Part shown: piece after piece, positions 1 through 17,814 of the stretch | Layout: every line of letters starts with the position of its first letter | How positions within the stretch are numbered: the stretch's first letter is position 1 | Source of the DNA: Bacillus sp. ISL-55 | GTDB taxonomy: Bacteria > Bacillota > Bacilli > Bacillales > Cytobacillaceae | Direction: 5' to 3' | Assembly (NCBI RefSeq): GCF_018613155.1 | Contig: NZ_JAGGQU010000008.1 | Location: 20,175 to 84,174 of the forward strand | DNA: 64,000 nucleotides | Translations under genes and position numbers: made by a program | Notes under the pieces: model-generated | What the model was told of the DNA's origin: nothing | Database searches by the model: none | What the model saw: the letters and a program-made list of their open reading frames with translations, nothing else

Positions 1-151
1 CTTTTCGATTTCAGTCCTGTCAATGAAGTCAAAGTGCGACTTCACTGCCAGGCCTTCCGAGGCACACGATGTGCCAGACCCGCCAGCCACAGGACGTGGC
101 GTCATAGGCGGGCAGCGCTTTTCGGGGCTGATCAAGGCGCTTGCGCTTTTC
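1..151. repeat. Dispersed modular repeat, copy 1 (5' part outside window)
   Basis: This segment carries modules also found at 39825-40068 and 49328-49624: an AATGAAGTCAAAG-nn-CGACTTCA hairpin module, a GAGGCAC...GACCCGCCAGCCAC...GGCGGGCAGCGCTT module and a terminal GGCGCTTGCGCTTTTCT module. It lies directly before the soj ribosome site. GC content is visibly higher than its surroundings. No coding role is supported. Confidence 0.85.
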
Positions 152-17161: not shown

Positions 17162-17284
17162 ATGAGCTACGAAGAAAAACATGAAAAAGCTAAAAATATT
17201 TTAAAAAGATATATACAAACAATAAAATGCTATGGTAATATAAACAACGTTGTCACTAATTCGACAAAAAGTGATAAAGTTTGA
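17162..17284 (+). CDS. Possible small ORF (40 aa), unrecognised
   Basis: ATG 17162 follows AAGGAAAATAG and opens a 40-codon frame encoding a lysine-rich peptide (MSYEEKHEKAKNILKRY...). It ends with the TGA just at the start of the first tRNA-like element and overlaps the putative tRNA promoter. There is no family recognition; AT-rich codons alone could give this by chance. Confidence 0.2.
   Translation: MSYEEKHEKAKNILKRYIQTIKCYGNINNVVTNSTKSDKV
17250..17278 (+). promoter_or_regulatory. Candidate promoter of the tRNA cluster
   Basis: TTGTCA, 17 bp spacer, GATAAA. A start about seven bases later would fall at the GATACGAG that opens the first tRNA-like element. Confidence 0.45.
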
Positions 17285-17394
17285 TACGAGCCATTAGCTC
17301 AGTCAGTTGCTTGCATCGAGGAGTTCACTTCAGCGGCAACTTGCGAGAAAGGCCGAAGGTATTTTGAGCACTGTATCAAGTAAGTCTTCATTTA
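17283..17394 (+). ncRNA. tRNA-5'-derived structured element 1 (before tRNA-Lys)
   Basis: It starts with ATACGAGCCATTAGCTCAGTC, identical to the first part of the tRNA-Lys locus 125 bp downstream, then departs into AGTTGCTTGC, 15 variable bases, CAGCGGCAACTTGCGAGAAA, a small CC-GAA-GG hairpin and TTTTGAGCAC. GCTCA pairs with TGAGC, GTTGC with GCAAC, and the ends GATAC with GTATC. It cannot form a tRNA: no anticodon or T arm follows. A second copy with the same core lies before tRNA-Phe. Type is inferred from the pairing; no known RNA family is recognised. Confidence 0.5.
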
Positions 17395-17412
17395 GGGTTG
17401 AATTTTTCATAC

Positions 17413-17485
17413 GAGCCATTAGCTCAGTCGGTAGAGCATCTGACTTTTAATCAGAGGGTCGAAGGTTCGAGTCCTTCATGGCTCA
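17413..17485 (+). tRNA. tRNA-Lys (TTT anticodon)
   Basis: 73 nt cloverleaf: acceptor GAGCCAT/ATGGCTC, D arm AGCTCAGTCGGTAGAGC, anticodon arm TCTGACTTTTAATCAGA with TTT, T arm GAAGGTTCGAGTCCTTC, discriminator A. The CCA end is not encoded. Confidence 0.97.
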
Positions 17486-17502
17486 CTTAGATTTTTATAT
17501 CC

Positions 17503-17574
17503 GGCCCCTTGGTCAAGCGGTTAAGACACCGCCCTTTCACGGCGGTAACACGGGTTCGAATCCCGTAGGGGTCA
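17503..17574 (+). tRNA. tRNA-Glu (TTC anticodon)
   Basis: 72 nt cloverleaf: acceptor GGCCCCT/AGGGGTC, anticodon arm CCGCCCTTTCACGGCGG with TTC, T arm ACGGGTTCGAATCCCGT, discriminator A. CCA is not encoded. It is the only tRNA of the three without an upstream tRNA-like element. Confidence 0.97.
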
Positions 17575-17591
17575 CTTTATTACATATTTAA

Positions 17592-17704
17592 TTGAATATT
17601 ATCTTGGCTCAGTAGCTCAGTCAGTTGCTTGCTTCTTCGAATAATCATCAGCGGCAACTTGCGAGAAAAACCGAGAGGTTTTTTGAGCACAGTATTCAAA
17701 TATA
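17592..17704 (+). ncRNA. tRNA-5'-derived structured element 2 (before tRNA-Phe)
   Basis: It begins TTATCTTGGCTCAGTAGCTCAGTC, identical to the start of the tRNA-Phe locus 128 bp downstream, then enters the same core as element 1: AGTTGCTTGC, variable bases, CAGCGGCAACTTGCGAGAAA, an AACC-GAGA-GGTT hairpin and TTTTTTGAGCAC. Flanking GAATA and TATTC can pair where element 1 has GATAC and GTATC, and the CC/GG hairpin is kept while loop and lower pairs change. This suggests a conserved fold in two tRNA contexts. Confidence 0.5.
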
Positions 17705-17733
17705 ACAAAGTTTAGGAAACAACATTTTATCTT

Positions 17734-17806
17734 GGCTCAGTAGCTCAGTCGGTAGAGCAAAGGACTGAAAATCCTTGTGTCGGCGGTTCGATTCCGTCCT
17801 GAGCCA
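17734..17806 (+). tRNA. tRNA-Phe (GAA anticodon)
   Basis: 73 nt cloverleaf: acceptor GGCTCAG/CTGAGCC, D arm AGCTCAGTCGGTAGAGC, anticodon arm AGGACTGAAAATCCT with GAA, T arm CGGCGGTTCGATTCCGTC, discriminator A. CCA is not encoded. Confidence 0.97.
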
Positions 17807-17814
17807 TTAAAAAA

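Follow-up and report, generated by a model that had tools for sequence, protein, structure and literature searches.

tRNA genes serve as attachment sites for integrative elements, and bcr1 of the Bacillus cereus group, MITEs and REPs are familiar examples of small, structured repeated sequences. In the T-box riboswitch, a leader RNA is linked to tRNA identity, and the rtT sequences are tandem repeats that carry a piece of a tRNA, the copied piece being the tRNA 3′ end. In the E. coli tyrT operon, rtT RNA is released from the tRNA precursor (PMC4986893). In the window (the whole stretch of 64,000 nucleotides of Bacillus sp. ISL-55 DNA analyzed here), ARAGORN located a three-tRNA operon, Lys-Glu-Phe, flanked by putative purA upstream and by putative peptidase and walRK genes downstream. 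The tRNA-Lys and tRNA-Phe genes are each preceded by an element (17284–17412 and 17599–17732) with the same layout: a copied 5′ part of the downstream tRNA, a core with two helices (P2 and P3) of the kind we call type I, and a tail of 42 to 43 nt. The features of the locus are as follows.

17212–17241, plus strand: candidate promoter of the Lys-Glu-Phe operon (TATACA-18-TAATAT), inferred by reading, in a block kept between filled and empty relatives
17284–17304, plus strand: copy of the tRNA-Lys 5′ flank, acceptor 5′ strand and D-arm start, identical to 17409–17429 (21 nt)
17303–17370, plus strand: type I core of element 1 (model R2, 68.6 bits)
17305–17310/17336–17341 (P2) and 17342–17370 (P3, ending GAGCA), plus strand: helices of element 1, coordinates by eye
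17371–17412, plus strand: tail of element 1, 42 nt, with TTTAGG at 17391–17396 and reaching tRNA-Lys (from spacing and motif offset across copies)
17413–17486, plus strand: tRNA-Lys(TTT) (ARAGORN)
17503–17575, plus strand: tRNA-Glu(TTC), without an element (ARAGORN)
17599–17622, plus strand: copy of the tRNA-Phe 5′ flank, acceptor 5′ strand and D-arm start, identical to 17727–17750 (24 nt)
17621–17689, plus strand: type I core of element 2 (model R2, 81 bits)
17623–17628/17654–17659 (P2) and 17660–17689 (P3, ending GAGCA), plus strand: helices of element 2, coordinates by eye
17690–17732, plus strand: tail of element 2, 43 nt, with TTTAGG at 17711–17716 and reaching tRNA-Phe (from spacing and motif offset across copies)
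17733–17807, plus strand: tRNA-Phe(GAA) (ARAGORN)

A sequence-only reading of this DNA had described direct repeats of the tRNA 5′ ends, a switch to one common core at the same point in both elements, and elements upstream of tRNA-Lys and tRNA-Phe but not tRNA-Glu. All of this holds: the repeats are real (21 nt for Lys and 24 nt for Phe, in units of 125 and 128 bp), the switch from tRNA copy to core falls after CAGTC in both elements, and the distribution is borne out by the tRNA coordinates. The 20-mer CAGCGGCAACTTGCGAGAAA, common to both elements, occurs twice in the window versus 0 expected from shuffles. Both copies are of a short form that lacks GGTAGAGCA, the rest of the D arm, and the ends of each element can pair over 7 bp (TTGATAC/GTATCAA and TTGAATA/TATTCAA). 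No open reading frame of at least 80 aa is listed between 17022 and 18162, and the units in the window encode no integrase. In the predicted fold, the folded element keeps the cloverleaf of the neighboring tRNA free. The output of a consensus promoter scan did not include the TATACA-18-TAATAT site.

The element family is far wider than the two copies first noticed. Four strong type I copies were found in this genome with the core-only model R2, and a pattern scan recovered an arrangement like that of the window in Mesobacillus selenatarsenatis and Bacillus sp. ISL-37. By BLAST, the type I core was detected in 18 of the 21 genomes of the genus. A covariance-model search across the family placed it in 113 of 193 genomes and 17 of 25 genera (model R1; the tally of 113 includes weak matches, some near E = 1e-3). 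Model R2 matched 20 of 397 genomes in a sample of the order, 12 of which belong to the window's own family, and the three matching genomes among 398 in a class-wide sample (E up to 1e-4) were all of the window's own genus. Most relatives that were read carry a long form, in which the whole D arm (GGTAGAGCA) is kept and the insert follows GAGCA at the junction of the D stem and anticodon stem; the long-form insert itself ends in GAGCA. Compensating end pairs, also proposed from the window, are real there but are not general to the family: short-form copies reached 5 bp or more in 9 of 19 cases (mean 4.6, against 3.8 in shuffles) and long-form copies did so in 11 of 75, with a mean no higher than in shuffles (3.69 versus 3.78), and end pairing was rejected as a family feature on these counts.

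Across 98 distinct type I cores, 98.2% of 1542 cells were paired, with changes on both sides in 10 of 16 pairs (alignment A7, which was fitted to its own model, so that these pairing figures lean towards structure). Double-changed cells numbered 182 versus 36 in shuffles, slid structures paired at 26 to 50%, and a MAFFT alignment of 45 type I cores was 98.7% paired. The GTTGC/GCAAC pairing and the CC/GG hairpin noticed in the window both covary across relatives, and in a copy between tRNA-Thr and tRNA-Tyr the P2 stem is wholly different in sequence yet matching. Within type I pairs, G-U was far more frequent than A-C (78 versus 10), which places the fold on the sense strand. Helix P3 carries a tandem G-A (one side in 97 of 98 cores, the opposite side in 89 of 98), and its loop is GNRA in 50 and GNA in 43 of the 98. 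A tail hairpin (P4), discernible by eye in many copies, is not claimed, as the best stem over 95 tails exceeded shuffles only modestly (5.8 versus 5.1).

A second insert (type II), marked by the motif CTTGAATAAGCTTCCTGAG, occupies the same scaffold as type I. At no more than one mismatch the motif was found in 46 of 193 family genomes (reversed control, 0). The gene downstream of its 32 matches in 30 loci was tRNA-Met in 20, Phe in 5, Pro in 2, Thr, Arg, Asn and Lys in one each, and none in 1; 29 of the 32 repeated 12 nt or more from the 5′ part of the tRNA that follows. According to model R3, type II is absent from this genome and present in 104 of 397 genomes and 50 of 135 genera of the order, upstream of tRNA-fMet, Met, Phe, Lys, Thr, Arg, Asn and Pro. 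At this level, 41 of 53 matches from 30 loci (5 of the 53 without a tRNA downstream in the locus, and at least 4 already in the first module set, A8) repeated 15 nt or more from the 5′ part of their own downstream tRNA, versus 18 of 420 control pairings with the other tRNAs in those loci. The type II stem was 98.3% paired, with 52 double-changed cells versus 12 shuffled (39 of 40 modules; leaving out L093, with a stem of 3 pairs, favors structure), and 99.3% paired at the order level, with 64 versus 14 (49 distinct matches). The count of double-changed pairs was unexceptional for type II (33 and 151 of 500 shuffles as high), as was the count of pair types (107 and 495 of 500). As in a structured RNA, compensatory base changes are present in both types, two of the five measures being unexceptional in type II.

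A stable-RNA gene lies downstream of 111 of 114 type I matches (124 R2 matches in the fetched loci minus 10, of which nine repeated places in other loci and one was cut off): tRNA-Phe in 63, Lys in 35, 16S in 5, Tyr in 4, Asp in 2, Met and Gly in 1 each, and none in 3. The tRNA- and 16S-linked copies are in sense orientation. Many tRNA genes adjoin copies, where the sequence-only reading had named a lack of copies beside other tRNA genes as a point that would tell against it. In seven of the 114, the core directly adjoins the 3′ end of a preceding tRNA instead of GAGCA (four before Tyr, two before Asp, one before Gly). Between core and tRNA-Phe, 49 of the 51 nearest copies leave a gap of 40 to 45 nt (range 39 to 49, median 42); the gap to tRNA-Lys was bimodal (36 to 63 nt, n = 29 copies), and the distance from the preceding tRNA ran from 21 to 193 nt (n = 53 first copies). 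A TAGG-type motif was present in 60 of 95 tails, versus 9% of shuffled tails, mostly 20 to 21 nt past the core. Over 78 nearest copies, the flank has drifted (38 to 60 identical per position), positions 8 to 17 are kept in 77 to 78 (partly fixed by the anchor used) and the acceptor part in 71 to 78; in copies of loci L027, L034 and L090 the acceptor has diverged while the D arm is intact. Tandem arrays reach five almost identical units (L081), and 16 of the 18 core-to-core periods below 200 measure 132 to 138. Within one genome the flanks of copies are alike, and apparent remnants of older copies were seen by eye in L026, L035 and L087.

Of 102 cores, 88 agreed in tRNA type with their closest counterpart in another genome (Phe, 60 of 64; Lys, 28 of 38); with the closest one in another genus, 59 of 64 Phe cores and only 9 of 38 Lys cores agreed. 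The type was assigned from the first Phe or Lys gene to follow within 750 nt, so a few Tyr- and Asp-linked cores are probably mislabelled. Because cores track tRNA type between genomes, inheritance is mainly vertical; from these similarities, units are mostly passed on within the genus and homogenized locally, with movement, if any, being rarer. No insertion event was caught between near-identical genomes.

Of 83 type II and 102 type I elements examined, 74 and 88 carry a copy of 15 nt or longer, and that copy stops at GAGCA in 68 and 62 of them, respectively; 16 of the 26 type I copies that end elsewhere do so at CAGTC, as in the window. In Lys, Phe, Thr and elongator Met the GAGCA junction falls around position 26 of the tRNA, and in fMet (recognized by its CGCGGGG start) around position 14, where that tRNA carries GAGCA, so the junction follows sequence and not one structural position. 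Beyond the insert, many copies pick up the species' own tRNA sequence again (AAGGAC or ATGGAC in Phe, TCTGAC in Lys). In genome G476, a type I core splits the 16S leader directly after TTGAGCA, with the insert ending in AAGCA; of the seven 16S leaders found there, six were read: one is empty (TTGAGCA followed directly by ATCAATAC), and the other five carry the insert, with P3 shortened in two. Genome G413 has three empty leaders among those read and one filled leader, which lies at the end of a contig. Clean empty sites, which the sequence-only reading had suggested seeking in relatives, were also found at tRNA genes: the Lys locus of genome G009 has a promoter region and tRNA like the window's and no unit, and an fMet site is empty in locus L126 and filled in L033. 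Such sites are explained both by insertion and by precise loss through recombination between direct repeats.

Inserts of other kinds were seen in comparable places. In loci L152 and L168, representing one rRNA operon each of genomes G160 and G095, another insert of about 100 nt lies between the leader end and 16S. The rRNA promoter region in L153, L162 and L170 (G475) contains repeated hairpins with TTGCTTAAAACATC...GATGTTT-like units, where a weak R2 match lies on the opposite strand. Locus L096 has other inserts elsewhere in the D arm upstream of tRNA-Phe and tRNA-Asp (for Phe, GGTAGCT/...GGAGCA/AAGTCGG, with slashes at the boundaries), perhaps a third type.

Rfam 15 at gathering score matched only tRNA, rRNA and Bacillaceae-1 RNA, the last elsewhere in the window (61–123, minus strand, 36.5 bits against a gathering score of 35), and nothing for the element; at E up to 10, searched for type I only, no family was returned for it. 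The RtT covariance model gave no match at gathering score, nor at E up to 10 for type I only. The elements of the window were called tRNA neither by ARAGORN nor by the Rfam search to E = 10, and an element of L028 scored 17.5 bits with the tRNA model, below the gathering threshold of 29. Phage records gave no match to either type. Type I matched 67 plasmid records, none with 80% of the query, and the 20 listed all fell within its first 35 bases (the D-arm end); type II matched no plasmid. Among viral contigs, 12 matched a 17-nt pattern, R1 matched only weakly in three of these (at most 16.1 bits), and a type II pattern matched none. In the literature, judged by titles and abstract openings, no description was recognized as this element. 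An antitermination role was considered and not adopted, with nothing in its support. Separately, a dispersed intergenic repeat (GTCTAGCTCCAGCGCCTAG...TTGCGAGAAGCGTTAGCTTTGAGCA-GCTCGAG) shares a P3-like end and loop motif with the type I core; it occurs genus-wide (L132–L137, L176–L201), with one copy in this genome (G000:C25:109768), and, with coordinate 1 taken as the origin, 43 of the 49 copies listed for four single-contig genomes are oriented with replication.

The comparisons establish a covarying, strand-specific, tRNA-linked family: its inserts are of two types, they mostly join at GAGCA, and both tandem arrays and empty sites occur. Most units that were read consist of a tRNA 5′ copy mostly ending in GAGCA, a type I or type II insert and a tail, followed by an intact tRNA; they measure about 130 to 150 bp in the family, are non-coding and lie in stable-RNA operons of this order. 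We read the elements of the window as members of a small, gene-less, structured insertion family that favors GAGCA within stable-RNA genes and spares its host tRNA by duplication of the 5′ part; our confidence in this reading is evenly balanced. The insert would enter 3′ of GAGCA, and the events surviving in a tRNA gene would be those that duplicate the sequence through GAGCA and so leave an intact tRNA downstream. Recombination between the two identical 5′ parts could then amplify, delete and homogenize units together with their tRNA. The element would be co-transcribed and fold as its own domain, with the tRNA cloverleaf free; the unit is too short to encode an inserting enzyme. The sequence-only reading had left a choice between insertion into the D loop with rebuilding of the tRNA and a tRNA-derived RNA; insertion is the better supported because of the clean empty sites, the GAGCA junction shared by tRNA, fMet and 16S-leader sites and the own-tRNA copy per isotype, but the usual junction lies after GAGCA, not inside the D loop, and the earlier interpretation as a whole is partly supported. 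It is possible, though we hold it only tentatively, that these units represent an undescribed gene-less insertion class, composed nearly entirely of structured RNA or DNA, that recognizes GAGCA within stable-RNA genes and copies the host tRNA's 5′ part on entry; the two insert types with the same habit would then place the copying within the insertion process, which might be RNA-guided.

Several observations count against insertion. The narrow tRNA-Phe gap and the TAGG-type motif suggest a constraint beyond mere insertion, seven cores sit at upstream tRNA 3′ ends and 26 of 88 type I copies lack the GAGCA end, inheritance is mainly vertical, and no tie to the element emerged from the 25 Y1 transposase loci scanned (of 46 matches), from phages or, for type II, from plasmids, while type I met plasmids only in partial matches. 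The same gap and motif, together with sense orientation, a strand-specific fold, the intact D arms of L027, L034 and L090 and a flank that drifts while positions 8 to 17 hold, would be expected of a host regulatory or processing RNA, released from or acting in the tRNA precursor as in the case of rtT from E. coli tyrT, which would tune tRNA supply or processing through a 5′ part that mimics the D arm. However, the acceptor is likewise well kept, so the case for a special D-arm constraint is weak; the tRNA-Lys gap is bimodal, presence is patchy with an empty site behind the same promoter region, some cores, in a 16S leader or at an upstream tRNA 3′ end, have no tRNA copy, and the junction tracks GAGCA. 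On balance we consider a regulatory RNA rather unlikely.

Improbable, in our assessment, is a non-autonomous single-strand DNA element mobilized by IS200/IS605 or RAYT enzymes, with its hairpins acting as DNA. Its attractions are that P3 alternates between GNRA and GNA loops, both of which are stable in DNA, and that the dispersed repeat with a P3-like end mostly points with replication under the assumed origin. Y1 transposase genes occur in 18 of 21 genus genomes, but the type I P3 pattern, the only pattern tried, was absent from the 25 Y1_Tnp loci scanned of 46 matches, and genomes G016, G019 and G020 carry elements with no Y1_Tnp match. Less probable still are degenerate tandem tRNA-gene duplications, alike only through recombination and with neither function nor mobility. 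Direct repeats, tandem arrays, similar flanks within a genome and apparent remnants of older copies would all follow from such duplications, but the strong covariation across 98 distinct cores, the tandem G-A and GNRA/GNA loops conserved in them, the occurrence of one core type beside different tRNAs and 16S, and the breadth of type II already contradict them, unless the covariation is an alignment artefact.

With type II in over a hundred genomes of the order and no Rfam family, the insertion family that we favor bears on the evolution of tRNA operons, on the tolerance of tRNA genes for insertions and on whether a gene-less element can place itself; were the units processed RNAs instead, they would constitute a widespread uncharacterized RNA made together with tRNAs. 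Compared with described systems, the element resembles rtT RNA as an RNA element in a tRNA operon with tandem repeats that include a tRNA piece, but the piece copied here is the 5′ part and not the 3′ end, and to our knowledge rtT has nothing equivalent to the structured insert or to the junction at GAGCA. With tRNA-integrating elements it shares a tRNA direct repeat on both sides and an intact tRNA, whereas the unit here is gene-less, about 130 to 150 bp long, arranged in tandem arrays and specific in its copy to the host tRNA. Like bcr1, MITEs and REPs it is short, non-coding, structured and multi-copy, but no terminal inverted repeats were noticed and almost every copy read is tied to stable-RNA operons (111 of 114 type I matches precede a stable-RNA gene). 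The link to tRNA identity recalls the T-box riboswitch, although the element here precedes tRNA genes themselves and has no Rfam match. As each compared system lacks at least one feature tested or compared, and none of the known kinds considered joins these features, we rate the element as new in kind, a combination whose separate parts have precedents.
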